Shown: positions 7,659 through 61,396 of the stretch, piece after piece | Numbering within the stretch: the stretch's first letter is position 1 | How the letters are laid out: every line of letters begins with the position of its first letter | Assembly (NCBI RefSeq): GCF_029945535.1 | Contig: NZ_JAQSCU010000013.1 | Span: 1,522 to 65,521 of the forward strand | Source: Methylotenera sp. | GTDB lineage: Bacteria; Pseudomonadota; Gammaproteobacteria; Burkholderiales; Methylophilaceae | Reading direction: 5' to 3' | DNA length: 64,000 nt | Made by a program: the position numbers and the translations under genes | The notes under the pieces: generated by a model | Databases searched by the model: none | What the model saw: the letters and a program-made list of their open reading frames with translations, nothing else | What the model was told of the DNA's origin: nothing

Positions 7659-7762
7659 ATTTTGCAGCAAATTGACATTGAACAAGGCGCGTGAAACGTA
7701 GGTAGTACAATCAGTACGACAAGTGAGCGCAACGCCGTGCAATGGCGATTTCATGCAAAAGT
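7659..7762 (-). repeat. Dispersed structured element, copy A (after ychF)
   Basis: Starts one base after the ychF stop codon and lies in the ychF sense direction. An imperfect outer stem joins 7740-7762 with 7659-7680. The core, read on the minus strand, contains GGCGTTGC, CACTTG, the inner palindrome GTAC-TGATT-GTAC and GCGCCT. It shares the core with three other elements in this window (20836, 34908, 61299). The outer stem is the weakest of the four. Confidence 0.65.
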
Positions 7763-7763
7763 G

Positions 7764-8849
7764 CTAAACGTTGAACCTGAAGTGCATTACATCGCCATCT
7801 TGCACAATATATTCTTTGCCTTCCAAGCGCATTTTCCCGGCTTCTTTGCTGCCTTGTTCGCCTTTGTTTTTCACGTACTCTTCGTATTGAATCACTTCTG
7901 CACGAATGAAGCCGCGTTCAAAGTCTGTGTGAATGACGCCTGCAGCTTGTGGAGCGGTTGCACCTTTTTTCACTGTCCAAGCACGTACTTCTTGCACGCC
8001 AGCGGTAAAGTAAGTTTGTAGGCCTAGTAAATCATAAGCGGCACGAATTACGCGGTTTAGGCCTGGTTCTTCTTGACCGAGTTCTGATAAGAATAACAAC
8101 TTATCTTCTTCGTCTAACTCAGAAATTTCACCTTCAATTTTTGCGCAAATACATACGACTGGTGCATTTTCTGCTTTGCCTAGCGCAACTACTTTGTCTA
8201 ATAACGGGTTGTTTTCAAAGCCAGATTCATCTACGTTGGCTAAGTACATCACTGGTTTTACGGTAATGAGGCATAGCGGTTTAAGTAGTTGAAGTTCGTC
8301 GGCGTCTAGGTTTAGTGTACGCACAGCTTTGGCTTGGTCTAAACATGGCACTACTTTTTCTAAAACTTTTAATAGTGCAATCGCGTCTTTATCACCGCTT
8401 TTAGCTTTTTTGTTTTCGCGCTGCATGGTTTTTTCTACAGTTTCCATGTCGGCAAGTGCAAGTTCGGTGTTAATTACTTCAATGTCTGACAGTGGATCAA
8501 TTTTGTTTGAAACGTGAATCACGTTGCCATCTTCAAAACAGCGCACCACGTGGACAATAGCATCAGTTTCGCGGATATTAGCTAAGAACTTGTTCCCCAA
8601 ACCCTCGCCTTTTGAAGCGCCCGCTACCAAGCCAGCGATATCAACAAACTCAACAATCGCAGGTTGTACTTTTTGCGGTTTTACGATGTCGATGAGCGCT
8701 TGCATACGCGTGTCAGGCACTTCTACAATGCCTACGTTTGGCTCAATCGTGCAGAAAGGGTAATTCTCTGCCGCAATACCAGCTTTGGTAATAGCGTTGA
8801 ATAGTGTGGACTTGCCCACGTTTGGTAAACCAACAATTCCGCATTTCAT
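7764..8849 (-). CDS. ychF: Redox-regulated ATPase YchF
   Basis: A 361-residue Obg-family P-loop protein, close to the usual length of 363. G1 is GLPNVGKST (residues 7-15), G2 region PFCTIEPN, and G3 [17 protein letters not shown]. The G4 position reads NVDE in place of NKxD, the change that makes YchF prefer ATP over GTP. A helical coiled-coil insert and a C-terminal TGS domain ([17 protein letters not shown]) follow. YchF binds ribosomes and takes part in oxidative-stress response and translation quality. It is last in the pth-ychF series and is followed immediately by repeat copy A. Confidence 0.97.
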
Positions 8850-8874
8850 CTAAATTCCAATCATTTTTACCTTA

Positions 8875-8944
8875 TCATTCCGTGCTTGATATGGAATCTA
8901 GCGTCTTTATGTAAGTCACTAGATTCCGACTTTCGTCGGAATGA
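8875..8944. repeat. Nested inverted repeat between pth and ychF
   Basis: The outer arms TCATTCCG/CGGAATGA (8875-8882, 8937-8944) enclose GGAATCTAG/CTAGATTCC arms, and the right side folds on its own as TTCCGAC-ttt-GTCGGAA. Sequences of the type ATTCCGAC...GTCGGAATGA are common dispersed intergenic hairpins in proteobacteria. It fills the gap between two minus-strand genes and could slow or end transcription of pth. A degenerate trace of a similar sequence is visible near 62235. Confidence 0.6.
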
Positions 8945-8955
8945 CGCAGGTATGT

Positions 8956-9531
8956 TTATTTTTTAGTATGCAACTTTAACATTGCGCTTTCAAATTCGCC
9001 CGCTAGCAATGAATCTATCAACTTGGTGCTTTCATACACTTTTTCGTCTATAGCCGCTTGCTCATCTTTTGTTGGCGCTTTTAGAACAAAATTAACCACT
9101 TCGTTTCGATCGCCTGGGTGACCGATGCCCAATCTCAAGCGCCAGAAGTCTTTTGTGCCTAGTGCAGCCTCAATATCTTTTAAGCCATTGTGACCACCAT
9201 GGCCACCACCAACTTTTAGTTTTAAACCGCCCGCAGGTAAATCCAGTTCATCATGAATCACTAATATTTCAGCGGGTGTGATTTTGTAATAATTTGCTAA
9301 TGTGGCCACTGATTTGCCGCTAGCGTTCATAAACGTAGTTGGTTTAAGCAGCCAAGTATCCGCTTTCGATGCTAACTTGCCAGCTACGCCGAAAAACTTG
9401 GCGTCTAGGGCCAGTTTACTATTGGTTTGTGCGGCGACTTCATCTATCCACCAGAAGCCTGCATTGTGCCGGGTTGCGGTGTATTTTTCGCCAGGATTAC
9501 CTAAGCCAACAAAGAGTTTTATACCAGTCAT
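8956..9531 (-). CDS. pth: Peptidyl-tRNA hydrolase
   Basis: A 191-residue cytosolic enzyme that releases tRNA from peptidyl-tRNA that has fallen off the ribosome. Family signatures are visible: LFVGLGNPGEKYTATRHNAGF at the N-terminus, with the catalytic histidine in RHNAGF, the KPTTFMNASG motif, and DELDLPAG with GGGHGGHNGLKDI. I take the ATG at 9531 as start; a reading frame extends 10 codons further up, but the protein family begins just before LFVGLGNPG. It follows rplY on the same strand, separated by a terminator-like hairpin, the order usual in betaproteobacteria. Confidence 0.96.
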   Translation of the reverse strand: MTGIKLFVGLGNPGEKYTATRHNAGFWWIDEVAAQTNSKLALDAKFFGVAGKLASKADTWLLKPTTFMNASGKSVATLANYYKITPAEILVIHDELDLPAGGLKLKVGGGHGGHNGLKDIEAALGTKDFWRLRLGIGHPGDRNEVVNFVLKAPTKDEQAAIDEKVYESTKLIDSLLAGEFESAMLKLHTKK

Positions 9532-9552
9532 AAAGCAATAGTACCAATAAAA

Positions 9553-9581
9553 AACGCGCACTTCATAGTAAAGTGCGCGTT
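9553..9581 (-). terminator. Rho-independent terminator after rplY
   Basis: AACGCGCACTT (9553-9563) and AAGTGCGCGTT (9571-9581) form a perfect 11-bp stem with a 7-nt loop. On the minus strand it is followed by a U-rich run. It sits between the rplY stop and the pth start, so pth probably also needs its own promoter or read-through. Confidence 0.75.
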
Positions 9582-9599
9582 AGTTAGCATACTTGTAAA

Positions 9600-10208
9600 T
9601 TAAGCAGCTGGTGTTTCTTCAGCAGCATCTGCAACGCCGCCACGTGTTTTAGCAATAGCTGCAACAGCTGCATCGTTACCGTGAGCTAATTGTACAAATT
9701 CAACGCCCTTTGCCAATTTGATTTGTGACAAGTGAATTGAGTGACCCATTTCTAAACCAGCTAAGTCAACTTCAAGGAACTCTGGCAAATCTTTAGCCAA
9801 GCAACTTACGTCAGCTTCAGTCAAAATGTGTGCAACGATACCGCCGCCTGTTTTAACGCCTGGCGCGATGTCAGCATTGATAAAGTGGAATGGCACTTTA
9901 ACGTGGATTTTTTCAGTAGCACTTACACGTTGAAAGTCAATGTGCTGAATAGTGTTACGAACCGGGTGCATTTGGAAGTCACGTAACAATACGTTTTCTT
10001 TTTTGCCTTCTAAGTTCAATGTTAATACTGAAGCATGGAATGCTTCATGACGGAACTCTAAGAATAATTCTTTAGCGTTAATTTCAAGTGTTACGGCTTC
10101 TTTACCAGCACCGTAAACAACACCTGGAACTGTGCCTGCGCGACGAAGACGGCGGCTCGCACCCGTACCTTTTACATCACGCTTTACTGCATTAATTTCG
10201 ATAGACAT
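9600..10208 (-). CDS. rplY: 50S ribosomal protein L25/Ctc
   Basis: A 202-residue L25 of the long CTC/TL5 type. The N-terminal L25 domain (about 1-92; EINAVKRDVKGTGASRRLRR at the start) binds 5S rRNA, and the C-terminal beta domain (about 100-190) is found in the stress-protein form. The Ala/Glu-rich tail (AEETPAA) is ordinary for the family. It is preceded by prs and followed by pth. A terminator lies on each side, so it is probably a mostly single-gene transcript. Confidence 0.97.
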   Translation of the reverse strand: MSIEINAVKRDVKGTGASRRLRRAGTVPGVVYGAGKEAVTLEINAKELFLEFRHEAFHASVLTLNLEGKKENVLLRDFQMHPVRNTIQHIDFQRVSATEKIHVKVPFHFINADIAPGVKTGGGIVAHILTEADVSCLAKDLPEFLEVDLAGLEMGHSIHLSQIKLAKGVEFVQLAHGNDAAVAAIAKTRGGVADAAEETPAA

Positions 10209-10272
10209 TTTACTACTCCTAATTTGATACTACTTTTACTGCTAGGCTTTTGATGGCCTCACTACACAAAAA

Positions 10273-10296
10273 CTGCATACCGCGACCAGTATGCAG
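10273..10296 (-). terminator. Rho-independent terminator after prs
   Basis: CTGCATAC (10273-10280) and GTATGCAG (10289-10296) form a perfect 8-bp stem with an 8-nt loop. On the minus strand it is followed by a U-run (TTTTTG). It stands 13 bp beyond the prs stop codon. Confidence 0.8.
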
Positions 10297-10308
10297 GGTT
10301 AAAAACTT

Positions 10309-11259
10309 TTAATCCATAAACAATGAGCTTACGGAATCTTCACTACTAATTCTACGAATCGTTTCAGCTAATAGTTCTGCTGTGCTTAATTGGCGAATCT
10401 TTTTGCAATTAGCTGATTCAGCACCGAGTGCAATGGTGTTGGTCACTACTAACTCATCTAGTTCTGAGTTCATAATACGATCAGCTGCACCGCCAGATAA
10501 TACTGGGTGTGTGGCGTATGCGATTACTTTCTTGGCGCCAAATTTCTTAAGTGCTGCAGCTGCTTCGCAAAGCGTATTTGCCGTATCAACCATGTCATCC
10601 ATAATGACACAGGTGCGGCCAGTAACGTCACCAATAATGTTCATCACTTTAGCGACGTTTGGTTTTGGGCGACGTTTATCGATAATCGCTAAATCAGAAT
10701 TTAATTGTTTAGCTGCCGCACGCGCACGTACAACACCACCAACATCAGGTGAAACAACCATTAAATTATCATGATTTTGTTTTAATAAATCTGCTAACAA
10801 AATCGGTGTGGCGTAAATATTATCAACAGGGATATCAAAGAAGCCTTGAATTTGATCTGAGTGCAAATCCATCGTTAGTAAACGGTTAACACCAACGCCT
10901 GTGAGCATGTTAGCAACTACTTTAGCGGTAATGGCTACACGTGCTGAGCGCGGACGGCGATCTTGACGTGAGTAACCAAAGTAGGGGATTGCAGCAGTGA
11001 TACGGCCAGCAGAAGAGCGACGTAGCGCGTCCACCATGACCATGACTTCCATTAGGCTGTCATTGGTTGGGTGGCTGGTAGATTGCAATACGAATACATC
11101 TTTACCACGTACGTTTTCAAGCAGTTCAACAGTGGTTTCGCCATCGCTAAATGTGCCAACGTGCGCTTGACCAAGCTGAATGCCTAAGTGCTTAGCTACT
11201 TCTTGCGCAAGCACTGGGTTAGCCGTGCCAGTAAAGACCATTAAGTTGCCGTTAGACAT
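10309..11259 (-). CDS. prs: Ribose-phosphate pyrophosphokinase
   Basis: A 316-residue class I PRPP synthetase (usual length about 315). It transfers pyrophosphate from ATP to ribose 5-phosphate, feeding nucleotide, histidine and tryptophan synthesis. Visible marks are [16 protein letters not shown] (flexible loop and ATP site), [16 protein letters not shown] (flag and catalytic loop), [36 protein letters not shown], and the PRPP-binding [14 protein letters not shown]. It follows tRNA-Gln with a terminator between, the standard betaproteobacterial order. Confidence 0.98.
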
Positions 11260-11373
11260 CTGTTGATTTCCTAATAAACCGTGCTTGTAAACACTGTGCT
11301 TAAAGCCTCAGCATCAAACTATCAATAAAAACTTTGCTATTAGTAAAAATATAGCTATAAAAACTTACAAAAA

Positions 11374-11410
11374 ATAAAAGCGCGTAAATCAAAAATCTAC
11401 ACGCTTTTAT
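11374..11410 (-). terminator. Terminator downstream of tRNA-Gln
   Basis: ATAAAAGCGCGTA (11374-11386) pairs with TACACGCTTTTAT (11398-11410), 12 of 13 bp. On the minus strand a T-rich run follows. It stands 36 bp after the tRNA-Gln 3' end and 115 bp before the prs start. Confidence 0.65.
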
Positions 11411-11445
11411 CTATGAAAAAGCAGCTTTAATCTGCTTTCTAAATT

Positions 11446-11522
11446 TGGCTGAGGAGGAAGGACTCGAACCTTCGGATGCTGGGATCAAAACCCAGTGCCT
11501 TAACCAACTTGGCGACTCCCCA
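11446..11522 (-). tRNA. tRNA-Gln (TTG)
   Basis: A 77-nt cloverleaf with encoded CCA (complement of 11446-11448). The anticodon stem and loop read CTGGG-TTTTGAT-CCCAG, giving anticodon TTG. The acceptor stem TGGGGAG/CTCCTCA has one G-T wobble, and the T loop is TTCGAGT. It stands between ispE and prs, which is conserved in many betaproteobacteria. Confidence 0.96.
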
Positions 11523-11544
11523 ATATTTTAATCAGACTATCTAA

Positions 11545-12429
11545 TCAACTTGTAAAGTTCATTAGCGGGTGCTGATTCAACCCTTTTGCAACAAATCCCT
11601 GAACACCTTTAGGTTTTTGATCACATATATCTACTGCAGTTTTCTTATCTGCTACTTCTAAAAATACCGAAGCACCAGAACCACTCATTCTTGCATCGCC
11701 AAATTGGCTAAGCTTAAATTGATTTAACCAAGTTAAACAATCTAAAACAGCGGGGTATTCACTGCAAACTACTCTTTCCAAGTCATTTATAAATTCAGCA
11801 TTTAAATTACCTGCTGTTAATTTAGCCGTCCCAGAAAAGTCCGACATTGTCTTAGGATTCGTATTTTTTGTCAATTGCTTATTGGCAAATATTTGCGCTG
11901 TTGATACATGTACATTCGGATTCAGCACAACATAGTAGGAATTGTGCAGATTTATCTCCGTTAATTGCTCGCCTATGCCTTCTGCCCAAGCGTTTTTTCC
12001 AAAAATAAAAAAAGGTACATCAGCACCTAATTTCAAGCCTAATGCCATGAGTTCTTTGCGGCTTAAGTTAAGTTGCCACAAGTTGTTTAAAGCTAAAAGC
12101 ACAGTCGCAGCATCTGAGCTACCGCCACCTAAGCCGCCACCCATAGGGATGCGTTTTTCAATCAAAATTTCTACACCAAGTGGGCATTGCGTATATTGCT
12201 GTAACAATTTAGCCGCACGAACACATAAATCTTGCTCTGCAGGAACGCCAGCTACTTCATTGACACGTTTTACAACGCCGTCTGAAGTAGGCTTGAGTTT
12301 TATAGTGTCATATAAGTCGATTAGCTGAAAAACGGTTTGCAGCAAATGGTAGCCATCTGCTCGCTGGCCTGTAATGTGCAGAAATAAATTGATTTTTGCC
12401 GGCGCTAAAAATGATTGAAAGTCTTGCAT
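11545..12429 (-). CDS. ispE: 4-diphosphocytidyl-2-C-methyl-D-erythritol kinase
   Basis: A 294-residue GHMP kinase of the non-mevalonate isoprenoid pathway, phosphorylating the 2-hydroxyl of CDP-methylerythritol. The substrate loop APAKINLFLHITGQRADGYH is at residues 9-28. The glycine-rich ATP motif PMGGGLGGGSSDAATVLLAL lies around 91-110, and MSGSGASVFLE near 263-273. In relatives ispE directly follows lolB; here a carbonic anhydrase gene stands between them. tRNA-Gln follows 22 bp downstream. Confidence 0.97.
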   Translation of the reverse strand: MQDFQSFLAPAKINLFLHITGQRADGYHLLQTVFQLIDLYDTIKLKPTSDGVVKRVNEVAGVPAEQDLCVRAAKLLQQYTQCPLGVEILIEKRIPMGGGLGGGSSDAATVLLALNNLWQLNLSRKELMALGLKLGADVPFFIFGKNAWAEGIGEQLTEINLHNSYYVVLNPNVHVSTAQIFANKQLTKNTNPKTMSDFSGTAKLTAGNLNAEFINDLERVVCSEYPAVLDCLTWLNQFKLSQFGDARMSGSGASVFLEVADKKTAVDICDQKPKGVQGFVAKGLNQHPLMNFTS

Positions 12430-12524
12430 AGATGCGTATTTTAGCGCATCTAGCCTGCCGTTAGATTGACCAAACTAATTTTAATTAGCAGTTTTAATAT
12501 TTATGCAAAATTGTTGCATCTGCA

Positions 12525-13799
12525 CTACTCAATAATCACCCTGCCATTCAAAGCTTGCACCGGACGGTTGTTACTGTGATGCACAGCTTTCTTAAAGGCG
12601 TCAATTTGCTCTTTTGAAGCGGTGATAGGATTTTTCATTAATAGCCAGCGTACGCCCTCGCTGCAAGGAGGTGTGGTTAATGAGCCGCTAAAGCGGTAAT
12701 AGTTTTTATTATCTGGCATGAACTCACTGGGCATGACGCGATTTTTTAGTGCGATTGGTTCGCCTTCTTCTTCGGGTAGTTGTTCCCAAAGTTTAGCTAA
12801 TGCTGGGTTAGCTTTTCCTTCGGTGAACATTACGCCTATCACCGCTAGGTTGCCTTTAGCATCAGCATGCACAAAGTGCGCTTCCAGCGGAAAAGACTTG
12901 CCGTGTATTGTGTTTTCGCTAGGTGCATGGAAATGCACTTGCTTCATTTGGAAGGCACCGTTATCGAGTGCAAGCATATTGCCTTCTTTAAAATTAATTT
13001 GCACGGTATGGCCATTGTTGAAAATATCTTTTGCGGGGAATTTCTGTATCGCCTTTAAAGATTTAATCGCTGCATGAATGCTGTCTTCAATATTGATTGG
13101 CGATTGATTGCGACCTGCATCGCAGGTCGCAAATTCAGGGCTGAGTTTTGCCCAATTCTCAGGGCCTTCTTTGCCTTCGTAGGCCCAGTGTGGTTTGTGG
13201 CCGCCTTTTTTAATATCGGCAGGTTTTATTGCTGTCGATTTGGCTGTGACGGCGGCAGTTTTAGTGTCGGTTGGTTTTTCTGCTACTGGTTTGGCCGGCG
13301 CTTCAGGCTTTGTTGTAGATTTTTGCGTTTCTACATTGGTTTTGGCAGCAGCAGGTTTTGTCGCCACAGCCGTAATGGTAGGTTTTTCTGCCTGGCAAAC
13401 ATAGCGCATGGCTATATCCATGTCTGTTTCTGGCACAGGTTCTATAAACTCGGCACTTTTAGCATCGATGCCTGCTGAATAAACCAACTCGCTATTTAAA
13501 TATTGAAAAACTTGAGAAGTCGCAGATTTTTGTGCTGAGCAGTCAAAAAACCAGAGTAATTTGGATAAGTTATATTGTTTGTCTATGGTTTCTGGATTTT
13601 TTTGAAGGGTTTTGTATTCAACCTTCACCCAAGCTCTTTTATATTTATCTTGCTGCAATATAGATTGCTTATCCAGCATTATTTTTTCAATATTGTTGTC
13701 GCTAAGCTTGACCCATTGTGCTGCTTGGCTATTGTTGCATATAGCAAAACAGAATATGAATAGTGCGATTAATTTTTTCATTGTATCTACGTTCATCAT
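12525..13799 (-). CDS. Secreted alpha-carbonic anhydrase with N-terminal extension
   Basis: A protein of about 424 residues in three parts. A signal peptide (LIALFIFCFAICNNSQA) is followed by a CNP1/surface-adhesin E-like domain of about 110 residues (WVKLSDNN...MRYVCQ). A 60-residue linker rich in Ala, Lys, Pro and Thr leads to an alpha-class carbonic anhydrase domain (HKPHWAYEG onward). The three zinc histidines are present in QVHFHAPSE and EAHFVHAD (about H289, H291, H308), and the disulfide cysteines in TCDAGRNQSPI and TTPPCSEG. It would hydrate CO2 in the periplasm. Start at 13799 is chosen for its GAAGG 8 nt upstream; 13781 is an alternative. It interrupts the usual lolB-ispE pair. Confidence 0.88.
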   Translation of the reverse strand: MMNVDTMKKLIALFIFCFAICNNSQAAQWVKLSDNNIEKIMLDKQSILQQDKYKRAWVKVEYKTLQKNPETIDKQYNLSKLLWFFDCSAQKSATSQVFQYLNSELVYSAGIDAKSAEFIEPVPETDMDIAMRYVCQAEKPTITAVATKPAAAKTNVETQKSTTKPEAPAKPVAEKPTDTKTAAVTAKSTAIKPADIKKGGHKPHWAYEGKEGPENWAKLSPEFATCDAGRNQSPINIEDSIHAAIKSLKAIQKFPAKDIFNNGHTVQINFKEGNMLALDNGAFQMKQVHFHAPSENTIHGKSFPLEAHFVHADAKGNLAVIGVMFTEGKANPALAKLWEQLPEEEGEPIALKNRVMPSEFMPDNKNYYRFSGSLTTPPCSEGVRWLLMKNPITASKEQIDAFKKAVHHSNNRPVQALNGRVIIE

Positions 13800-13966
13800 A
13801 ATTGGAGCCTTCAACAAATTTATTTCAGCCTAAATTATGCGGAAATAGTGATGGTTTTTAATGATAAAGTACGGCTGGGTTTAGACCTTAATTCCTAGAT
13901 TTGGAATATTGGGCTTGAAGTTTGAATGATTAAAAGCTAGCGTGAGCTTGAATCAATTGCTTTGAG

Positions 13967-14641: not shown

Positions 14642-14652
14642 AGTGAAAAGAA

Positions 14653-17667: not shown

Positions 17668-17682
17668 ACTTAAGGTCTCATC

Positions 17683-19922: not shown

Positions 19923-20834
19923 ATGAAAAAACGCTGGTTACTTAATTTGGTGATGTTGTGTGTAGTGGCAAGTTTGGTGGCATTTTTATATTTGCGTCCT
20001 AAACAAACTGCAGAACAAGAAGCCAGCTATGATATCTCTGCATATAAGCTAGCTGAATTCAATGCAATTAGTGTGGAGTTCCCAGCTAAAGCGGCAGTTA
20101 AGTTGGACAAAGTGAGCGGTTTCTGGCGTTTGAGTGCGCCGATTAACATGCGCGCGGACCAAGCTTCAGTGCAACGTATTTTGTCTATTATTGCAGCAAG
20201 ATCAAAAGATAAAATTACCAATCCTGATTTAGAAAAATTCGGTTTAAACAACCCTGCGCTTAAATTGAAGCTTATTAGAGACAAAAACAGCCAAGATAAA
20301 AACAGTGTAGAAGAATTCACATTCGGCACACACAACCCTGTGACTGATGAGCAATATGTTGCTCACAGAAATGCAGTGTATTTGGTGTCTAACAACTATG
20401 CTGAAGCGGCTTCTACACAGGTTATTGAGTTGATTGATAAGTCACCACTAAAACCAACTGAGAAAATAGCCGGTTTTGATTTTAGTCACTTAGAGCAATG
20501 GTCAGACACAAGGTTGAATGTTGATTTAGCTGATGGAAAATGGAACGTTTCAATCGCAGCAGCCAAGCCACAACAGAACGAAATGAACGAGTGGTTAGAT
20601 TTTTCATGGGTGCATAATCCAGCGAAATCTGTAGAAATGTATACGCCAGATCGTAAAATCACTTACCCATATGTAATGATTAAATTAGCGGACGGCAGCA
20701 AAGTGCGTTTTGATAAGATTCAGGAGTCACCTGATTTACTGTTAGCCCGTCCAGACGAAGGTTTGATCTACAACTTCCCGGCGGATGCTGGTTTCACGAT
20801 GTTGAATCCACCAATTAACATTCCTAGCAAGTAA
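19923..20834 (+). CDS. DUF4340 domain protein
   Basis: A 303-residue protein anchored by an N-terminal membrane segment (LLNLVMLCVVASLVAFLYL) with the rest probably periplasmic. It contains DUF4340 features: FWRLSAPINMRADQASVQRI (about residues 65-84), FGLNNPALKLKL, and FTFGTHNPVTDEQYVAHRN. DUF4340 genes commonly stand after gldG-like genes, so it is probably part of the same exporter. Its stop codon is followed one base later by structured repeat copy C. Confidence 0.85.
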   Translation: MKKRWLLNLVMLCVVASLVAFLYLRPKQTAEQEASYDISAYKLAEFNAISVEFPAKAAVKLDKVSGFWRLSAPINMRADQASVQRILSIIAARSKDKITNPDLEKFGLNNPALKLKLIRDKNSQDKNSVEEFTFGTHNPVTDEQYVAHRNAVYLVSNNYAEAASTQVIELIDKSPLKPTEKIAGFDFSHLEQWSDTRLNVDLADGKWNVSIAAAKPQQNEMNEWLDFSWVHNPAKSVEMYTPDRKITYPYVMIKLADGSKVRFDKIQESPDLLLARPDEGLIYNFPADAGFTMLNPPINIPSK

Positions 20835-20835
20835 T

Positions 20836-20933
20836 TCCATTTCTTTATCAACACTGTCGTTGTTGCCTTCACCTTGCCGTGCTATAGCACTGTCTTCGGC
20901 TTGTCGCCTAGACATTATTAATAAAGAAATGGA
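20836..20933 (+). repeat. Dispersed structured element, copy C (before mutM)
   Basis: Starts one base after the DUF4340 stop codon. The outer stem 20836-20851 with 20918-20933 pairs at 15 of 16 positions. The core contains GTCGTTG, TTGCC, a perfect inner palindrome GTGCTATAGCAC (20879-20890), ACTGTC and TCGCCTAG. The right arm of the outer stem includes most of GGAG at 20931-20934, the probable ribosome-binding site of mutM. It is one of four related elements in the window. Confidence 0.75.
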
Positions 20934-20942
20934 GTAAAGTTT

Positions 20943-21758
20943 ATGCCAGAACTCCCAGAGGTAGAAACCACCCGCCGTGGGCTTTTGCCTCTTGTCGGCA
21001 AGGTGGTTAAATCGGTTACCATTCGCCATCCTACGCTGCGCTGGCCTATCCCTCAGACTCTGCTTCAAACATTACCCAATCAAACACTACGCGGCCTTAC
21101 ACGTCGCGCAAAGTACATTTTGTGTGAGTACGACACTGGTGTTTTGTTGTTGCACCTAGGCATGTCTGGACGTGTTCAATTGCTGGATACAAATTATCCA
21201 CCAGAAAAGCATGACCATTTCGATATTGAGTTTACTGATGGTCAAGTATTGCGGCTGCGCGACCCACGTCGCTTTGGCGCAGTATTGTGGATAGATAACA
21301 AAGATAATCACCATGTGCTGTTGAATAGCCTAGGTCCAGAGCCGCTAGAAGAGGGCTTCAACGCTAAATATCTGCACACTGCATTAAGTAATAAAACGCT
21401 AGCTATCAAAAATGCCATTATGGATGGCCATATCGTGGTGGGTGTAGGTAATATCTATGCCTCTGAGTCGCTATTTCGAGCACGCATTCATCCAGAAACA
21501 TCAGCTAGCAAACTGACTTTAAGGCAGTGTGAGAGGTTAGTGGTGGAAATCAAAAGTACTTTAAATGATGCCTTGTCTGCGGGCGGTAGCAGTCTGCGAG
21601 ATTTTTTTGGCGTTGACGGCAATATTGGCTATTTTCAGCAAGAGTACTTTGTCTATGCGCGCACTGATGAACCATGCAAAGTCTGCACAAAGCCGATTAA
21701 ATGTATACGCTTAGGTCAACGCTCTACATTTTATTGCGAGAAGTGTCAGAAGCGATAG
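20943..21758 (+). CDS. mutM: Formamidopyrimidine-DNA glycosylase
   Basis: A 271-residue base-excision repair enzyme that removes 8-oxoguanine and other oxidised purines and nicks the abasic site. The N-terminal MPELPEVETTRRGL gives the catalytic Pro and Glu after Met removal. The lysine loop (RRAKYIL) and helix-two-turn-helix region (VGVGNIYASESLFRA) are present. The C-terminal zinc finger CKVC...CEKC is complete. A GGAG lies 8 nt before the ATG and inside the right arm of repeat copy C, so its translation may depend on that structure. It is convergent with ubiB. Confidence 0.97.
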   Translation: MPELPEVETTRRGLLPLVGKVVKSVTIRHPTLRWPIPQTLLQTLPNQTLRGLTRRAKYILCEYDTGVLLLHLGMSGRVQLLDTNYPPEKHDHFDIEFTDGQVLRLRDPRRFGAVLWIDNKDNHHVLLNSLGPEPLEEGFNAKYLHTALSNKTLAIKNAIMDGHIVVGVGNIYASESLFRARIHPETSASKLTLRQCERLVVEIKSTLNDALSAGGSSLRDFFGVDGNIGYFQQEYFVYARTDEPCKVCTKPIKCIRLGQRSTFYCEKCQKR

Positions 21759-33271: not shown

Positions 33272-33543
33272 TGCTTGCCTTTGTTGCGGTGATTAATTGT
33301 ATGTCGCTAACTTTAGTCACTAATTTAAATAAGATAAAATACTTTATTAGGATATGCATATAATTATTTAGAATAATATAAATTGCGTTTTAGCTTGGTA
33401 TTTTTCTGTGATGAACTAACGCGTAACTATTCATGTCACACAGCTGGTTTAGAATGATGGAGACTTTAAAACCTTAGCCAAGCTATAATCAGACAAGATT
33501 TATTTAGAAGATAGTCATTAACAAGAATTTGGAGAAGTACAAG

Positions 33544-34905
33544 GTGCGTATCAAAAGCTTATTGATTTTAATATTAGCAATGCCAATTACCGTTTTTGCA
33601 GAAAGTTCAATACAGGAGTTCAAACTTGATAATGGTTTAAAACTTGTGGTGCAAGAAGATCATCGTTCGCCGGTAGTGGTTTCGCAGGTATGGTATCGCG
33701 CCGGTAGCATGGATGAAGTGAATGGTAAAACTGGCGTAGCGCACGTGCTAGAACATATGATGTTTAAAGGCACTAAAAAAGTGAAAGCAGGTCAGTTCTC
33801 ACGCTTAATCGCAGCAGCAGGCGGTAAGGAGAATGCCTTTACTGGTGCTGATTACACTTGTTACTTTCAGCAACTTGAAAAGTCACAATTACCACTATCT
33901 TTTGAGTTAGAAGCTGACCGCATGGCGAATCTACAACTGACTAAAGAAGAGTTTGATAAAGAAATTAAAGTGGTGATGGAAGAGCGTCGTTGGCGCACCG
34001 ATGATAAGCCGCAAGCCATGGTGAATGAGGCTTTTCAAGGTACGGTTTATCGCGCCCACCCATACGCACGACCTGTTGTAGGTTTTATGAACGATCTGGA
34101 AAATATGACTTATGAAGACGCGCGTGAGTGGTATCACAACTGGTATGCGCCTAATAATGCCACGCTAGTCGTTGTGGGGGATGTAAAAGCAGGTGATGTT
34201 TACAAGCTTGCCCAACAATATTTTGGCAAACTAACGCCAAAAGTATTGCCTGCTCGCAAGCCACAAGTAGAGCCGCCACAAATTGGCGAGCGCCGCATTA
34301 TAGTTAAAGCACCCGCTAAACAGCCTTATATTCTCATGGGTTACCATGTACCTGCATTGAATAACCCAGAGTCAGACTGGGAGCCGTATGCACTAGAGGT
34401 GTTAGCAGGCGTGTTAAGTGGAAATCCCGCTGCGCGACTTAATCAAAGCTTGGTGCGAGATACGCAGTTGGCTGTTGATGTGAGTGCAGGTTATGACCTT
34501 TTGGAACGCGGACGTTTGAGCTTGTTTGAGTTAGACGGCACGCCAAGCGAAGGCAAAACCGTGAATGAAGTAGAAGCGGCTTTGTTGCAACAAATAGAAA
34601 AAATCAAAACATCTGGTGTGACCACTGAAGAGCTTGATCGCGTTAAAGCGGGCGTAATTGCCTCAGACGTTTATCAGCGCGACTCTATGTTTTACCAAGC
34701 CATGCAGATAGGTACGGTGGAAACGATAGGGTTCTCTTGGAGAATTTTAGATGGTTACCAAGCAAAATTGCGCGCGGTGACGTCAGAACAAGTGCAAGCA
34801 GTCGCTAAGAAATATCTAGTTAAAGATAATTTAACCATTGCGACTTTAGATCCGCAGCCGATAGATCCGAATGCGAAGCCGCAAGGCAAGCCCCATGTAC
34901 ATTGA
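33544..34905 (+). CDS. M16 zinc peptidase, active subunit
   Basis: A protein of about 453 residues with signal peptide (IKSLLILILAMPITVFA) and an M16 peptidase fold. The inverted zinc motif HxxEH is intact (AHVLEHMMFKG, near residues 66-76) and the downstream glutamate lies in VMEERRWRTDD. A GTG start at 33544 with GGAG nine bases upstream is preferred over a TTG five codons earlier. It is periplasmic. The next gene encodes a matching subunit without zinc ligands, so the two probably form a heterodimer. Confidence 0.92.
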   Translation: MRIKSLLILILAMPITVFAESSIQEFKLDNGLKLVVQEDHRSPVVVSQVWYRAGSMDEVNGKTGVAHVLEHMMFKGTKKVKAGQFSRLIAAAGGKENAFTGADYTCYFQQLEKSQLPLSFELEADRMANLQLTKEEFDKEIKVVMEERRWRTDDKPQAMVNEAFQGTVYRAHPYARPVVGFMNDLENMTYEDAREWYHNWYAPNNATLVVVGDVKAGDVYKLAQQYFGKLTPKVLPARKPQVEPPQIGERRIIVKAPAKQPYILMGYHVPALNNPESDWEPYALEVLAGVLSGNPAARLNQSLVRDTQLAVDVSAGYDLLERGRLSLFELDGTPSEGKTVNEVEAALLQQIEKIKTSGVTTEELDRVKAGVIASDVYQRDSMFYQAMQIGTVETIGFSWRILDGYQAKLRAVTSEQVQAVAKKYLVKDNLTIATLDPQPIDPNAKPQGKPHVH

Positions 34906-34907
34906 GC

Positions 34908-35012
34908 GTCAATTGAAAATAGCGTCGCAATACGTTGTTGCACAACACCTCGTGTATAAAACATACACGTCGGCATTGAGCGCCTAGTCTTGCTTAGCCA
35001 TTTTCAATTGAC
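34908..35012 (+). repeat. Dispersed structured element, copy B (between M16 genes)
   Basis: Begins 2 bp after the stop codon of the first M16 gene. Outer stem 34908-34923 with 34997-35012 pairs at 15 of 16 positions. The inner hairpin CGTGTAT/ATACACG (34951-34957, 34963-34969) is perfect. The core shares GTTGTTGCAC and GCGCCTAG with the other copies. It lies in the sense direction of the preceding gene. Confidence 0.75.
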
Positions 35013-35076
35013 TGAGTTAAGTTAATTTTAAAGTTCGTCATTTCCGCGTAGGTGAGAATCCAGTTAAGGTAATAAA

Positions 35077-36387
35077 ATGAAAATAATTCAAATTTTAACA
35101 ATTGTAGTGAGTAGCTTAGTTGCGCTTAACAGTAACGCTGCAGTCAAAATCCAGCAATGGCAAACCAGCACAGGTACTGAGGTTTATTTTGTAGAAAATC
35201 ATGATCTGCCGATTGTCGATTTAAGCGTCAATTTTGCTGCAGGTAGCGCGCATGATACCGCTGAGAAATCAGGCGTAGCTGGTATTACCAAATACATGAT
35301 GACATTGGGTGCGGATGGCATGACTGATGAAGTCATCGCCAATAAAATGGCGGATATTGGTGCTATTTTGAGTGGGGATTTTGATGCTGATCGCTCAGGG
35401 TTTAAATTACGTACTTTAAGCAGCACACGTGAACAAACGCTTGCGCTAGAGGTATTTACAAAAGTTCTACAAAAACCAGACTTTCCAGAAGTGGTGTTAG
35501 CGCGTGAAAAAGCACGGATTATTTCTGGCTTGCAAGAAGCTGAAACGCAACCAGAAAGTATTTCAAACAAGGCTTTTATGAAAGCGCTGTATGGCTCGCA
35601 CCCGTATAGCTTGGATGAAAGTGGTGAGGTAGATACCGTTGCTAAAATTAAGCGTGAAGATTTACAGAATTTCTACAGCCAATATTACGGTGCAAAGGGC
35701 GCAGTGATTGCCATGATTGGCGATTTAACACGCGAACAAGCAAATAAGATTGCTGAGAATATATCGAGCGGACTACCAAAATCAGTCGTGATTGCGCCGA
35801 TTCCACCTGTAGCATATCCGACTAAAGCAGTAGAGCAGCGCATTGTGCATCCTGCATCACAATCCCATATTCTATTAGGTTACCCTGGCATTAAACGTGG
35901 TGACCCAGATTTACTTCCCTTATATGTTGGTAACTACATTTTAGGTGGAGGTGGCTTTGTGTCGCGTTTAACTGAAGAAGTCCGTGAAAAACGTGGTTTG
36001 GTATACAGCGTCTACAGTTACTTTATGCCGATGGCAGAATTAGGCCCATTCCAAATTGGCTTACAGACCAAAAAAGACCAAGCAGATGATGCTTTGAAGT
36101 TAGTGCGTGAAACTTTAGATAAATTTCTCAAAGATGGCGTTACAGAGTCTGAGTTAAAAGCCGCAAAGGCCAATATTATTGGTGGCTTTCCTATGCGCAT
36201 TGATAGCAATGGCAAGATTTTGGACTATTTAGCTGTGATTGGTTTTTACAAATTGCCGCTTAGCTATCTAGATGACTACAACGCAAAAGTAGCCAGCGTC
36301 ACTACCGCGCAAATTAAAGAAGCATTTAATCGCAGACTTAAAGCTGAGAATTTTGTAACAATTATTGTCGGTGATGCTGCAAAGTAG
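35077..36387 (+). CDS. M16 peptidase-like subunit lacking zinc motif
   Basis: A 436-residue secreted M16-family protein (signal IIQILTIVVSSLVALNSNA). At the place of the HxxEH motif the sequence reads GVAGITKYMM, so zinc binding is lost. The C-terminal substrate-binding signature GGFVSRLTEEVREKRGLVYSVYS is intact. It should serve as the non-catalytic partner of the upstream M16 peptidase, as in mitochondrial and other two-chain M16 enzymes. Repeat copy B lies between the two. Confidence 0.9.
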   Translation: MKIIQILTIVVSSLVALNSNAAVKIQQWQTSTGTEVYFVENHDLPIVDLSVNFAAGSAHDTAEKSGVAGITKYMMTLGADGMTDEVIANKMADIGAILSGDFDADRSGFKLRTLSSTREQTLALEVFTKVLQKPDFPEVVLAREKARIISGLQEAETQPESISNKAFMKALYGSHPYSLDESGEVDTVAKIKREDLQNFYSQYYGAKGAVIAMIGDLTREQANKIAENISSGLPKSVVIAPIPPVAYPTKAVEQRIVHPASQSHILLGYPGIKRGDPDLLPLYVGNYILGGGGFVSRLTEEVREKRGLVYSVYSYFMPMAELGPFQIGLQTKKDQADDALKLVRETLDKFLKDGVTESELKAAKANIIGGFPMRIDSNGKILDYLAVIGFYKLPLSYLDDYNAKVASVTTAQIKEAFNRRLKAENFVTIIVGDAAK

Positions 36388-54777: not shown

Positions 54778-54794
54778 GAATGAAGTACCAGTGG

Positions 54795-56473: not shown

Positions 56474-56475
56474 TT

Positions 56476-57330
56476 TTATTGCCAAACAAAACTACCCTTA
56501 ACACGGGTGCCATGCATAGACATAGAATATTCCATCAGTTCTTTGGATAACCAGTGTCTTTTTTGACGACTCTTTCTCATTTTATTTAGTTTACGTGTGA
56601 ACCAACTATGTTTGAGTAAGCGGTAGTTATAACGATAACCTAGACCATCTTTTTCTGATAAGCCGCGCTCTTGCTTCATCGCACTTTGGGTGATGGAGCC
56701 AAAATGGTGCAGCCAAGTTGCACCAGTCATCGCGCCAGTAATATTGGCTTTAGCCATCTCGTTAAAAAACATGGTGTCTTCAAAGCCTAATAGTTTAGGG
56801 ATTGGTTGAAAGTACCCAATATCTAACCAAACTGATTGATGCACCGCTAAGCAAACAGCATGATGCCCACCTACTCGCATCGCATCTTGCATTTTTAAAT
56901 TTGATTGTTTAGCAAACTCATCCAGATCATAATCAAGAATACCATTGGAAATGGAGTTTGTTGTGAGAGGTCCTTCTATCAATGAAGGTGAAATCACTTT
57001 TATATTATTTTTTTCAGCAGCTTCGATTAAATTTTCAATCCAATGCTCAGTAACGATTACATCATTATTCATAATAATCGTCCACTCCGCCTGTAAAGCA
57101 AGTGCACCCTGATTCCAGGCTGTGCCACAACCCAGGTTAGTTTTATTGAGTATAAGTCCACCTAATGGTAATGATTCAAGATAACTACGAGTGCTGTCTG
57201 TTGAAGCATTATCCACAACAACTAGACGACTTAAATCTAACTTATGCTTGATCATGCTGTCGATACACATTTTTGTGTATTCCACTTGGTTATAACAAGC
57301 AAAGGTGATTGCGTATTTTTGAGGGTTCAT
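56476..57330 (-). CDS. Family 2 glycosyltransferase
   Basis: A 284-residue GT2 protein: YAITFACYNQVEYTKMCIDS and VVVDNASTDSTRSYLESLPL at the N-terminus, and TIIMNNDVIVTEHWI with the acidic metal site. The last third is basic (RKLNKMRKSRQKRHW). It overlaps the end of the O-antigen ligase gene by four bases (ATGA). The target sugar is unknown, presumably in LPS core or O-antigen. Confidence 0.88.
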   Translation of the reverse strand: MNPQKYAITFACYNQVEYTKMCIDSMIKHKLDLSRLVVVDNASTDSTRSYLESLPLGGLILNKTNLGCGTAWNQGALALQAEWTIIMNNDVIVTEHWIENLIEAAEKNNIKVISPSLIEGPLTTNSISNGILDYDLDEFAKQSNLKMQDAMRVGGHHAVCLAVHQSVWLDIGYFQPIPKLLGFEDTMFFNEMAKANITGAMTGATWLHHFGSITQSAMKQERGLSEKDGLGYRYNYRLLKHSWFTRKLNKMRKSRQKRHWLSKELMEYSMSMHGTRVKGSFVWQ

Positions 57331-58646
57331 GATATCCGACCATTAAAGTGCATTGCGTCATGGGACTTGTAAAATAGAATTTGGCCACAAAATATTGCTA
57401 AAGTTAAGCCATAAAATGAAGCAGAATAACGTAAGTTAAGTACCTCCATACTTAAGCTACTAATAAACTGACAGGTTAAAAAAGCCAATGCAAGGAAAGC
57501 AACATCTCGTATTTTTTTATTTGCACTACGAAGATTCTTAACAAAAAATATAGCAGGTATAAAAAATAATGCTAATGTAGATATTAAACCCCAAATGCCT
57601 GATCTGACCATGTTAGCTGTAATATCATTATGAAATCCAGCAGTGAGCGCGGTCATTTTAGTTGGCATTTCTGCAAAGTCCAGCGCAGAGTCGTTAATAA
57701 CACTTTCAAAATTACCATCACCCCAACCACTTAGCGGCTTTTTTTCAAGTAAAAAAACTGCAATCCTTGCGAAGGATATTCTAGCGCCAACCGAACTGTC
57801 TTTATTTTGGTCGTTCCAGTGATAATTTGAGATTTCGTTAGCGGCCATTTCCGCACGCTGTTGGACTGTTGTAGATAAAAAGTAACTGAAAATGATTACT
57901 GTAATGATGCCTATGCCAGCAATAAATTTTTTCTTAAAAGTAAATATTCCATTATCAAAATAGATCCAAATTAGCCCAATTATTGGAATTGCCAGCCATC
58001 CCGTTCTGCTACCTGAAGCAATGGATAGATAGATGCCTGAACCAAATCCAATCAATTTATATAAAATGAGTAATTTAGAATAATGACGGTGTAATTTTAT
58101 AGAAATTAAACTCATCAAACCAAATGTGAGACTTAAGCTGCCAAACTCTAATGGATCAACAGCTTGAGTAGATAATCGAGTTGCACCCCAAAACAAGTTC
58201 GGGTGAGTTACTATATTCGCTAGTGCTAATAGGGTTACTATTGGAAATATGTAGCTTAAAAGTTCAACTACACGAGGGCTGTTTTTTAACATTGCCCAGA
58301 TCACAAAAATGCAAATTAAAATGTGCAAAGGGCTATCATAGTAATCCCAAGCGAATTGCCCTCTAAAGGATTGCCCCAATAGAATCGCAATAATGGGAAG
58401 TGAGAAAGTGATTGATAGTAATTTAATATCGAAAGCATTTTTATAGGAATCAGCCGATTTGAGAATATAGCTTTTATTTCTAAAAAAAACATAAATAGCA
58501 AGTAGTGCGCATACGGCAACTATTCGCGTCATCCAGCCGGAAACTGTAAGTAGAAACAGTGGAGATATTGCTAGGCTGAGTGTGAAAAGTTGCTCAGCAG
58601 ATACGTTTTTGATTGAGTCAAGAGCGTTGATTTGGTTTTTAAGCAT
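57327..58646 (-). CDS. O-antigen ligase-like membrane protein
   Basis: A 439-residue polytopic protein with 10-12 transmembrane segments. The periplasmic loop around residues 290-340 has GWGDGNFESVINDSALDF and TAGFHNDITANMVRSGIWGL, the His-containing Wzy_C/WaaL loop. It either ligates O-antigen to lipid A-core or polymerises it; the two cannot be separated by sequence. It sits in the same operon as four glycosyltransferases. Confidence 0.88.
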   Translation of the reverse strand: MLKNQINALDSIKNVSAEQLFTLSLAISPLFLLTVSGWMTRIVAVCALLAIYVFFRNKSYILKSADSYKNAFDIKLLSITFSLPIIAILLGQSFRGQFAWDYYDSPLHILICIFVIWAMLKNSPRVVELLSYIFPIVTLLALANIVTHPNLFWGATRLSTQAVDPLEFGSLSLTFGLMSLISIKLHRHYSKLLILYKLIGFGSGIYLSIASGSRTGWLAIPIIGLIWIYFDNGIFTFKKKFIAGIGIITVIIFSYFLSTTVQQRAEMAANEISNYHWNDQNKDSSVGARISFARIAVFLLEKKPLSGWGDGNFESVINDSALDFAEMPTKMTALTAGFHNDITANMVRSGIWGLISTLALFFIPAIFFVKNLRSANKKIRDVAFLALAFLTCQFISSLSMEVLNLRYSASFYGLTLAIFCGQILFYKSHDAMHFNGRIS

Positions 58647-58670
58647 AGGCGAGATTTGTGGTTAATTGAT

Positions 58671-59309
58671 CTAAGTTCGGGATTTAGCGTATGCAAGTAA
58701 ATCTGAAACGTCTTGAGTGCAAAGTTTGTCCATCACTTTGCTAATTTCTTCTTGAGGCCAATCCCACCAAGCTGCAGCTAGTAAATCATTTCTAGTTGCT
58801 TCATCAAATCTCCATTTTATTAGTTTAGCGGGGTTGCCTGCCATTACAGCATAAGGTTCAACATCTCGGCTAACAACTGCCCCATTAGCAATGACAGCGC
58901 CATGACCAATAGTGACACCTGATAAAATAATACAGTTTGCACACAGCCATACATCACTGCCAACAACCACATCTCCGCGGCTACCGCCCTTTATATATCC
59001 CTTTTTATATTGGGCATCCATTTCAAAGAAAAACGGAAATGGGTAATTACTTACCCAGTCCGTTCTATGCTGTCCCCCGAGAAATATTTGTACATTGCTT
59101 GCGATGGAGCAATATGCACCAATTTTTAATGTGCTGCCTTCATTGTTGTCATGAACAATGGGCATCCCGTGGCTCGCAGTGCCGACCGTATAATTAGGGT
59201 AGCGTTTTTTAAACTTTTCTTGCTGGCGAGCATGGTTTTGGAGTTTACTTTTGTCAGTTTTATAGTTAGTAAAACTTGCCCAAATTATTTTTAAATAGTT
59301 TTTAAACAT
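58671..59309 (-). CDS. CatB-type O-acetyltransferase
   Basis: A 212-residue left-handed beta-helix acetyltransferase. Hexapeptide repeats are visible in IGAYCSIASNVQIFLGGQHR and VVVGSDVWLCANCIILSGVTIGHGAVIANG, and the ending VSRDVEPYAVMAGNPAKLIKW is typical of CatB/xenobiotic acetyltransferases. The catalytic histidine is probably H76 in GGQHRTDW. It is the first gene of the minus-strand LPS operon, so a sugar O-acetylation is likely. Confidence 0.88.
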   Translation of the reverse strand: MFKNYLKIIWASFTNYKTDKSKLQNHARQQEKFKKRYPNYTVGTASHGMPIVHDNNEGSTLKIGAYCSIASNVQIFLGGQHRTDWVSNYPFPFFFEMDAQYKKGYIKGGSRGDVVVGSDVWLCANCIILSGVTIGHGAVIANGAVVSRDVEPYAVMAGNPAKLIKWRFDEATRNDLLAAAWWDWPQEEISKVMDKLCTQDVSDLLAYAKSRT

Positions 59310-59331
59310 TATTGCCGCAGTATATGTCGTA

Positions 59332-59361
59332 GATGCCTAGTCTAAATAGAATCTAGGCATC
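59332..59361. promoter_or_regulatory. Inverted repeat in divergent region before edd
   Basis: GATGCCTAG (59332-59340) and CTAGGCATC (59353-59361) form a perfect 9-bp inverted repeat with 12 bp between. A second, CCCT-aatttc-AGGG, follows directly. It lies between the divergent acetyltransferase and edd genes. A regulator-binding site is plausible but it does not match a known operator I recognise. Confidence 0.4.
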
Positions 59362-59485
59362 AATTATGCCCTAATTTCAGGGTGTTTGTTTAGATATTGG
59401 CTAATAGAAGACACCATTCGTTTGACGATAAGCCCTGCATTGAGGATAATTGAGTCAGTACATTAATTTTCTGGTCTTATATAAA

Positions 59486-61300
59486 ATGAAGCAATCCCAT
59501 ATAGAAGTTACCGAACGTATTATTGAGGTTAGTCGTCCTACGCGTTCTGCCTATTTAAACCGCTTAGATGACATTGCCAATCGTCAGCGTGGCGCTGATC
59601 GATTAGGTTGCGCCAATGTGGCGCATGCGTTTGCGGCGATGCCAGCGAATGATAAATTGCGTGTAGTGGTAGAAAAAGCGCCTAATATTGGCATTGTCAC
59701 GGCTTATAATGAAATGCTGTCTGCGCATCAGCCTTATGTTAATTACCCTAATGTTATTCGTGATGAGGCGCATAAGTATGGTGCTACGGTGCAGGTTGCA
59801 GGTGGCGTGCCTGCTATGTGCGATGGTATTACGCAGGGTGAGCCCGGCATGGAGATGTCCTTATTCAGCCGTGATGTGATTGCGATGAGTACTGCTATCG
59901 CGCTTTCACATGATGTATTTGATGCGGCAATGTTGCTTGGTGTGTGCGATAAAATCGTGCCTGGCTTGCTAATTGGTGCTTTGAAGTTTGGCCATTTGCC
60001 CTGCATATTTGTGCCTGCTGGTCCAATGAGTACCGGCTTAGACAACACAGCTAAATCTAAAGTGCGTGAAAAATATGCGCAAGGTTTGGTTGGGCGTGAG
60101 GAGTTGTTAGCTTCTGAATCTGCCGCTTATCACGGAGCAGGTACTTGTACATTTTACGGTACTGCTAACAGCAATCAAATGTTGCTAGAAGCAATGGGCT
60201 TGCATGTACCAGGCGCCGCATTTATTCACCCCGCTGATGGCATGCGTGAAGATTTAACGCGTGAAGCTGTGAGATTGGTATTGGATATGACCAAACCACA
60301 AAGCTTCACGCCAATTGGTCGTCTAGTTGATGAGCATGTGATTGTAAATGCAATGGTGGCCTTGCTGGCTACTGGCGGCTCAACTAATCACCTAATTCAT
60401 TGGGTTGCAGTTGCCCGCGCTGCAGGCATTATTATCGACTGGACAGATTTTTACCATTTAGCCAAAACTACGCCGTTATTGGCAAGCGTTTACCCTAATG
60501 GTAAAGCGGATGTTAATCAGTTTCAAGAGGCTGGCGGCCCGGGTTTTGTGATTCGCGAGTTGATTGAGGGTGGCTATATGTACCCAGACGTATTTACCGT
60601 CACTAAAGGAGGCTTGCATGATTTTGGCAAAAAGCCAACTAAAGAAGATGGTAAATTAGTTTGGAAATCATTCCCTGAAGAAAGTGGTGATGAAACCATT
60701 GTTCGTACTGTTGAACATCCGTTCAGTGAAACGGGCGGTTTACGTTTACTTAAAGGCAATTTAGGCCGTAGCGTGATTAAAATTTCAGCTGTGCCTGCAG
60801 ACCGCCATATTATTGAAGCACCAGCGATTGTCTTTGATGCGCAAGAGGAGTTGTTAGACGCGTTTGATCGCGGAGAGCTGGAAAAAGACTTTATCGCGGT
60901 AGTGCGTTTTCAAGGACCTAAAGCGAATGGTATGCCAGAGTTACATAAACTCACACCTCCGCTTGCAGTGCTACAAAACAAAGGCTTTATGGTGGCAATT
61001 GTTACAGATGGTCGTATGAGCGGCGCATCGGGTAAAATTCCAGCGGCAATTCATTTAACACCAGAAGCGTCAGCAGGCGGTCCATTAGCTAAGGTGCGTA
61101 CTGGCGATATTATTCGCTTAAATGCAACAGTAGGTATGGTGAACGTGCTGGTAGATGAAGATGAGTGGGCGGAACGTGAAGTGGAAGAGTTATCTGATAC
61201 TAAGCGTCATAGCAATGCACATGGCTTTGGGCGTGAATTGTTTGGTGGGATGCGCAGGAATGTGCTCTCAGCCGAAGAAGGTGCAGTTACTTGGTTATAA
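59486..61300 (+). CDS. edd: 6-phosphogluconate dehydratase
   Basis: A 604-residue [4Fe-4S] dehydratase of the IlvD/Edd family, converting 6-phosphogluconate to KDPG. Cluster cysteines lie in [33 protein letters not shown] and [16 protein letters not shown]. The ATG at 59486 aligns with known Edd starts ([16 protein letters not shown]); a TTG 12 codons earlier is possible. No good ribosome-binding site precedes either. It works with eda downstream. Its stop codon overlaps structured repeat copy D. Confidence 0.97.
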
Positions 61301-61396
61301 CTTTGCAAATCAACCGATAACGTCGTTGCATTCACTTGCCGTACTAATCGTACTGTCTGGGTTTATGCGCCTAGTTCTCGATTGATTATCAAAGTT
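61299..61396 (+). repeat. Dispersed structured element, copy D (after edd)
   Basis: Starts within the edd stop codon. Outer stem 61299-61317 with 61378-61396 pairs at 16 of 19 positions. The core has GTCGTTGC, CACTTGCC, inner palindrome GTAC-TAATC-GTAC (61341-61353), ACTGTC and TGCGCCTAG. It lies in the sense direction of edd and is the clearest representative of the four. Confidence 0.75.

Follow-up and report, generated by a model that had tools for sequence, protein, structure and literature searches.

Correia-type elements behind stop codons in Methylotenera and other bacteria

Four short elements with a common core lie in a 64,000-nucleotide stretch of contig NZ_JAQSCU010000013.1 from Methylotenera sp. 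(hereafter the window), and each of them begins directly behind the stop codon of a gene. Their placement raises the question of whether they are RNA-level 3'-end elements or copies of a mobile repeat, a choice that a preliminary description of the window had left standing while finding no named family to which they belonged. By sequence comparison, the core of these elements is that of the Correia element (CREE/NEMIS) of Neisseria, and the window elements are probably old copies of a non-autonomous DNA element resembling a miniature inverted-repeat transposable element (MITE), which carries this core, targets T-N-A and has been retained selectively with respect to orientation.

Four elements with the core of the Correia element

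The elements and their host genes are as follows:
7657..7763, minus strand: element e1 (left arm 7740-7763, core 7680-7739, right arm 7657-7679)
7764..8849, minus strand: host gene of e1, YchF-type GTPase (Pfam PF06071), stop codon TAG at 7764-7766
19923..20834, plus strand: host gene of e2, DUF4340 protein (Pfam PF14238), stop codon TAA at 20832-20834
20835..20934, plus strand: element e2, 100 bp (left arm 20835-20855, core 20856-20914, right arm 20915-20934)
33529..34905, plus strand: host gene of e3, peptidase M16 (Pfam PF05193/PF00675), stop codon TGA at 34903-34905
34906..35012, plus strand: element e3, 107 bp (left arm 34906-34930, core 34931-34990, right arm 34991-35012)
59450..61300, plus strand: host gene of e4, 6-phosphogluconate dehydratase type (Edd; Pfam PF00920/PF24877), stop codon TAA at 61298-61300
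61301..61394, plus strand: element e4 (left arm 61301-61318, core 61319-61377, right arm 61378-61394)

The places and the shared core given in the preliminary description proved correct, with the four cores recovered by a covariance model at expectation values (E) of 1e-13 to 1.4e-9, as did the position of each element behind a stop codon in the sense direction (TAG for e1, which lies immediately 3' of the YchF gene, TAA for e2, TGA for e3 and TAA for e4). Read 5' to 3', the core of about 59 nt consists of CGTTGC, CACTTGCC, a GTAC/GTAC hairpin, TGTCTGCG and GCGCCTAG, and it is enclosed by inverted arms of about 20-25 nt whose sequence varies among the four loci; e3 carries a variant core with a longer inner hairpin. 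At the gathering score, Rfam matched only two tRNAs in the window and none of the four elements.

When the core of e4 was compared by blastn with a plasmid collection, it matched two N. gonorrhoeae records (chromosome-sized, though filed among plasmids) at 78.3% over all 59 bases (E 2e-3), and core matches occurred at no fewer than 40 places in each record. At one N. gonorrhoeae locus (L074) the core sits between TATAGTGGATTAAATTTAAA-type arms, which correspond to the published Correia repeat as its letters and variants appear in PMC5039591. The likeness extends over the whole length of the core, which is therefore that of a named family after all. The 26-bp Correia repeat (tatagtggattaa...) does not form the arms of the window copies or of those elsewhere in the genus, whose arms differ, and we therefore call the elements Correia-type rather than Correia elements.

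A covariance model built from the four window cores found seven confident copies in the 3.0-Mb genome from which the window comes, three of them outside the model's seed (E 1e-8 to 2.2e-5). A second model built from 37 matches returned eight confident and two weak matches there, as well as matches at E 0.01 or better in 42 of 52 genus genomes (0-16 per genome). The exact core pattern matched 28 stretches in named genomes, which come from Methylotenera, Methylobacillus, Methylophilales, Silvimonas, Andreprevotia, Chitiniphilus, Pseudogulbenkiania, Rhodocyclaceae, an unassigned betaproteobacterium and the gammaproteobacterium Regiella. The second model gave counts from at least 12 to at least 85 for each of seven other genomes and a record of N. 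gonorrhoeae, the last of which has at least 68. Matches were present in 85 of 250 genomes of another family of the same order and in 13 of 370 genomes of a broad class sample, the genome studied here being among the 13. The Correia core is thereby placed in many genomes beyond Neisseria.

Variation within the family takes several forms. Tandem copies stand about 105-109 bp apart (L079/L107, L118, L143, L156 and L252), with as many as four in the Silvimonas locus L252. Remoter relatives (L360-L377) keep CGTTGC..CTTG and CTGCG..GCGCCTTG, have another inner hairpin and arms that pair almost perfectly, and include some neighbouring copies that are oppositely oriented. A subfamily (L464-L477, in genomes G657, G445 and G573) has arms of GGAGGCGGCAATACAGGCCCTCA type and lies mostly away from stop codons.

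The genes that follow three of the window elements are these:
20943-21758: gene after e2, Fpg/MutM-type DNA glycosylase (Pfam PF01149)
35077-36387: gene after e3, also a peptidase M16 (Pfam PF05193/PF00675)
61543-62169: gene after e4, KDPG aldolase (Eda; Pfam PF01081), so that e4 lies between edd and eda

Just downstream of e1, a phage-type integrase gene (6077-7300, minus strand) stands beside a tRNA (7495-7568, minus strand), and the two may mark an integrated element.

Docking behind stop codons

To place the family relative to genes, we assembled 100 fetched stretches together with loci from the searches, which held 150 located matches, 145 of them unique. The nearest upstream gene runs in the sense direction in 121 of the 145 copies, and in 111 of these 121 a distance of 12-29 nt separates the end of its stop codon from the core, so that the stop lies where the left arm starts; among the same 145 copies, no comparable clustering of gene ends was seen at the right end of the element. 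A count that dispenses with gene calls, taking the stop codon of a 100-codon frame at the element end (143 copies, two skipped), gave a sense stop at the left end in 109 of 143 copies against a mirrored stop at the right end in 3 of 143, and control windows further out gave 0 and 0 on the left and 4 and 6 on the right. The sense preference for stop codons, proposed from four copies, is thus borne out by the copies of the genus. The upstream proteins fall into 37 groups, of which 28 have a docked sense copy; uniform placement gives an expectation of 5.07, a rough guide only since it was taken among 28 groups pre-selected for docking. Group names with Pfam support include the aspartyl-tRNA synthetase type, LeuA, TonB-like, DnaE, Ppnp, GroEL, P-II and MotA/ExbB. 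In genus group G2 (e.g. L129, L158 and L193), 15 copies lie antisense just upstream of iscU, beside the ribosome-binding site.

Docking also occurs in other taxa (99 matches, five skipped), where sense copies outnumber mirrored ones in Andreprevotia (12 vs 2 of 16), Silvimonas (8 vs 0 of 15), Chitiniphilus (6 vs 3 of 16), Methylobacillus (6 vs 1 of 9), Pseudogulbenkiania (3 vs 1 of 3) and the betaproteobacterium Emb289P4bin18 (8 vs 2 of 12, with 3 of 12 in one control window). A one-per-genome sample from the other family (28 loci) has 21 sense copies against three mirrored, and further genomes of that family have 0/7 (G657), 2/5, 1/4, 1/2, 1/2 and 1/1 copies docked. Within the 28-locus sample, groEL stops are occupied at eight loci from five genera (L417, L420, L424, L429, L430, L432, L436 and L439), one of which has a frame too short to be counted in the 21, as they are in the genus itself (L155, L178, L181, L182 and L183).

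Insertion, proposed retention and the coupled arms

The e2 locus records how such an element arrives. Its orthologous loci were readable in 29 of 30 cases; three of the 29 contain the core, and ten have the stop codon, 5 nt and then ATG. The corresponding spacing in the window is 108 nt, and the difference of 103 equals the 100 bp of the element plus one repeated TAA; accordingly, e2 is bracketed by the stop codon TAA and a second TAA at 20935-20937, and at the empty site of genome G035 query positions 1-275 are joined directly to 374-681. Element e2 is a 100-bp insertion with TAA duplicated. Two other origins were considered at this locus and rejected. Arms private to the locus and copied from host DNA do not agree with empty sites that lack both arms, or with the recurrence of e2-like arms elsewhere, and a stop codon made by gene truncation does not agree with a protein end that is identical with and without the element. 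The suggestion that the repeat builds its own flanking inverted copy thus fails at e2, where the one clear empty site indicates that both arms arrived with the element, although, given the coupled change described below, the arms may later be re-copied from each other. Likewise, the outer stems are unrelated between the loci of this genome, as had been noted, but not throughout the genus, since several genomes of the genus contain, at other sites, sequences that are 77-84% identical to e2 including its arms.

Element e3 is bracketed in the same way, by the stop codon TGA and by TGA at 35013-35015, and a recognisable copy is present at 15 of 30 orthologous loci and lacking at 15. At the e4 (edd) locus, 23 of 30 orthologues have a copy, three a degenerate copy and two a remnant, and two are empty. 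The e3 and e4 counts were read by eye from the sequences, an automated motif flag having missed several carriers.

A recent burst in genome G658 comprises 22 copies of one common core in a 111-112-bp unit whose ends begin GAG (GAGCGGCTAACACAACCC-type); in 21 of the 22, the same triplet, TAA or TTA, flanks the unit left and right. Precise insertion with a short target duplication, as expected of a MITE, is therefore seen at e2, at e3 and in G658; when arm ends were set by pairing, three T-N-A repeats were counted in 171 copies, so that a clean count comes only from the burst, e2 and e3. Nine of the 22 burst copies lie at stop codons in sense and six in antisense (two are counted in both), and at the stops of frames of 250 or more codons the numbers are five and five. 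This differs from the genus copies (Fisher p 6.7e-5) and from the gene groups (p 0.04), and the contrast between old copies that are sense-only and fresh copies in both orientations points to retention. Together, the empty sites, target duplications and bursts bear out the mobile-repeat half of the preliminary proposal.

These data suggest a course of events in three steps. A unit of about 100-112 bp with inverted ends would insert as DNA and duplicate a 3-bp T-N-A target (TAA, TTA and probably TGA), as is seen at e2 and in the G658 burst; because TAA and TGA stop codons fit this target, insertion behind a stop would leave the protein unchanged. Many insertions would then be lost, while sense copies directly behind a stop would persist and be inherited with the gene, and the missing antisense copies suggest that the cell is sensitive to the direction in which the core is transcribed. 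Finally, the arms drift jointly while staying complementary, a pattern more likely to result from arm copying at the DNA level or selection on the bottom strand than from selection for pairing in the sense mRNA.

Several observations weigh against this account or narrow it. Nine of the 22 G658 copies lie at stops of frames of 250 or more codons, where only about 15% of the T-W-A sites in those regions (24/156) are found, so the target rule explains only part of docking, and selection against insertion inside genes probably explains more. The orientation contrast weakens against the one-per-genome family sample (p 0.063) and the six other taxa (p 0.083), and the fresh copies are 22 from one genome. 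Among 119 stop-adjacent copies, the right-flank triplet equals the stop codon in seven and its reverse complement in 19, as though old target duplications were mostly lost or the arms had grown into the stop codon. Neither N. gonorrhoeae (0/11 sense, 2/11 mirrored) nor Regiella (1/12 sense, 0/12 mirrored) nor genome G657 (0/7) shows stop docking. The genus gene groups outside the 28 of 37 do not have sense-stop copies, antisense elements occur at the IscU group (15 copies; NifU_N in Pfam) and at a GTPase gene group (three), and the gene calls throughout are simple open frames. No transposase was found; in a search for a partner with the same ends, made with one end motif, pairs were mostly about 90-130 bp apart and none among the matches listed was the size of an insertion sequence. 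We would guess at an IS5-like mobilising enzyme from the target and end motifs.

What holds the arms together bears on the alternatives. The preliminary description had seen covariation in the inner hairpin, and the four window copies do differ as claimed; across 36 distinct rows drawn from numerous genomes, however, the hairpin is nearly invariant GTAC/GTAC, with a both-sided change at one of four pairs in one row. Covariation instead resides in the outer arms and the lower core helix. A 37-row core alignment contains both-sided changes in 54 cells, against 16.5 when shuffled and at most 14 when slid, while further pair types are no more numerous than in the shuffled alignments. At the edd stop, both-sided changes affect 13 of 22 predicted pairs (25 copies) and at dnaE 23 of 40 (8 copies). 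When the core is used to fix the register, double changes are more numerous than single ones in all 13 sets, including those drawn from one genome. As a side observation, columns 10 and 92 of core alignment A2 conserve a T-G opposition that is replaced almost solely by C-T and is never a stable pair, with one exception in alignment A3; a protein may contact these positions, in place of base pairing between them.

Such coupling could be neutral, with the arms kept complementary by template switching (quasi-palindrome correction), in which case covariation would say nothing about function. This is a plausible explanation, although we lean slightly against it. Double Watson-Crick changes exceed single changes in every set, including dispersed copies in Andreprevotia (40/27) and Chitiniphilus (51/19), and G.U intermediates are scarce; the double counts, however, are inflated by shared ancestry. 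Moreover, neutral copying predicts equal numbers of A.C and G.U mismatches, and composition leads one to expect nearly that (0.116 to 0.101), whereas by gene group an A.C excess is found in 23 against a G.U excess in three, with four ties (p 8.8e-5). Arm mismatches number 74 A.C and 32 G.U where genus copies are counted as sense loci (117 copies), 21 and 4 at antisense-lying loci, 95 and 36 in the whole genus and 48 and 15 in other taxa. No A.C bias appears in N. gonorrhoeae (10 A.C, 7 G.U) or Emb289 (3 and 4), and the variable core pairs, summed by hand, run opposite to the arms (34 G.U, 22 A.C).

The same mismatches argue against arm pairing in the sense mRNA as the selected trait, and they bear on the proposal that the elements have been domesticated as RNA 3'-end elements, the stop-docked hairpin setting mRNA 3' ends or stability, for example through RNase III cleavage in the absence of ribosomes or as a barrier to exonucleases, so that sense copies are kept. 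Sense copies do stand at the stops of many housekeeping genes, groEL among them in several genera, and Correia RNA is reported as an RNase III substrate (PMC2649163). Orthologous cores are also more alike (0.74-0.79) than the following flank (0.38-0.66) or third codon positions (0.41-0.60), a comparison limited to copies that the core model detects, and one in which gapped alignment of unalignable DNA inflates the flank values. Set against this are the A.C excess, which extends to antisense-lying copies, the occurrence of degenerate and lost copies at the same loci, and the strand that folds better, which is the antisense in 81 of 129 copies and the sense in 47; this strand bias, in mismatches and folding alike, suggests that folding takes place in the bottom strand of the element, whether DNA or RNA. 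We thus regard domestication of this kind as tentative and a little less credible than template switching, and the RNA-level half of the preliminary proposal as weakened, the more so as few copies have a T run after the right arm.

More speculative still, though possible, is a joint version in which a Correia-type element was repeatedly domesticated as a stop-docked, orientation-dependent 3'-end element of housekeeping genes (edd, aspS, leuA, dnaE, groEL and ychF) across Betaproteobacteria, its arms kept complementary by continual re-copying of one from the other; if true, function would be tied to shape and not to sequence. It is improbable that insertion itself is directed to stops in one orientation, coupled to the termination of transcription or translation: all three stop codons are used (majority codon TAA in 17 gene groups, TGA in seven and TAG in four) and six genomes have few mirrored insertions, but G658, the sole recent burst sampled, has both orientations at stops and a plain TAA/TTA target. 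Ordinary intrinsic terminators, which hairpins behind genes might bring to mind, are very improbable and were dropped, since six or more T within 9 nt after the right arm occur in only 10 of 129 copies and the next gene is co-directional in 109 of 145.

Old T-N-A insertions retained by orientation hence remain our favoured account. The sense-only docking of old copies amounts to a genome-wide natural experiment on hairpins directly behind stop codons, and a burst of the G658 type, with its clean 3-bp duplications, offers a harmless system for studying which enzyme mobilises the element, how its targets are chosen and what it does to host mRNAs.

Comparison with known elements

IS5-type MITEs belong to the TNA target group, and the G658 copies share with them both the 3-bp TAA/TTA duplication and ends that start with GAG. 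The REP/BIME palindromes of Escherichia coli lie near and behind stop codons, as the elements here do, but have a different core.

In the literature on Correia elements outside Neisseria or on elements at stop codons, the sole related lead among the matches listed was BRE, the beta-proteobacterial repeat element (Hot et al. 2011, PMC3110155), and others may be in print. It is described there as about 90 bp, repeated, intergenic and sometimes tandem, so that size, intergenic site, occurrence in Betaproteobacteria and tandem copies are alike, a likeness in description.

The closest relative is the Correia element itself. PMC2649163 describes Correia elements as confined to Neisseria and reports RNase III cleavage or binding, promoters and, in the long form, an IHF site. 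It also gives a 104-108-bp form and arm variants that are frequently symmetrical between the two ends (92/123 in FA1090). A similar size, inverted repeats around the core, an intergenic position and several, often symmetrical arm variants are common to those elements and the ones described here, and a transposase is neither known for the former nor found for the latter. The termini of Correia elements are tabulated as TA (PMC2229807), whereas the duplications here are 3 bp of the form T-N-A (TAA at e2, TGA at e3, TAA or TTA in 21 of 22 G658 copies), which contain or resemble TA. Sense docking at stop codons, absent in the 11 N. gonorrhoeae copies examined, and low copy number with inheritance at fixed loci further set the elements of this genus apart from their Neisseria counterparts.

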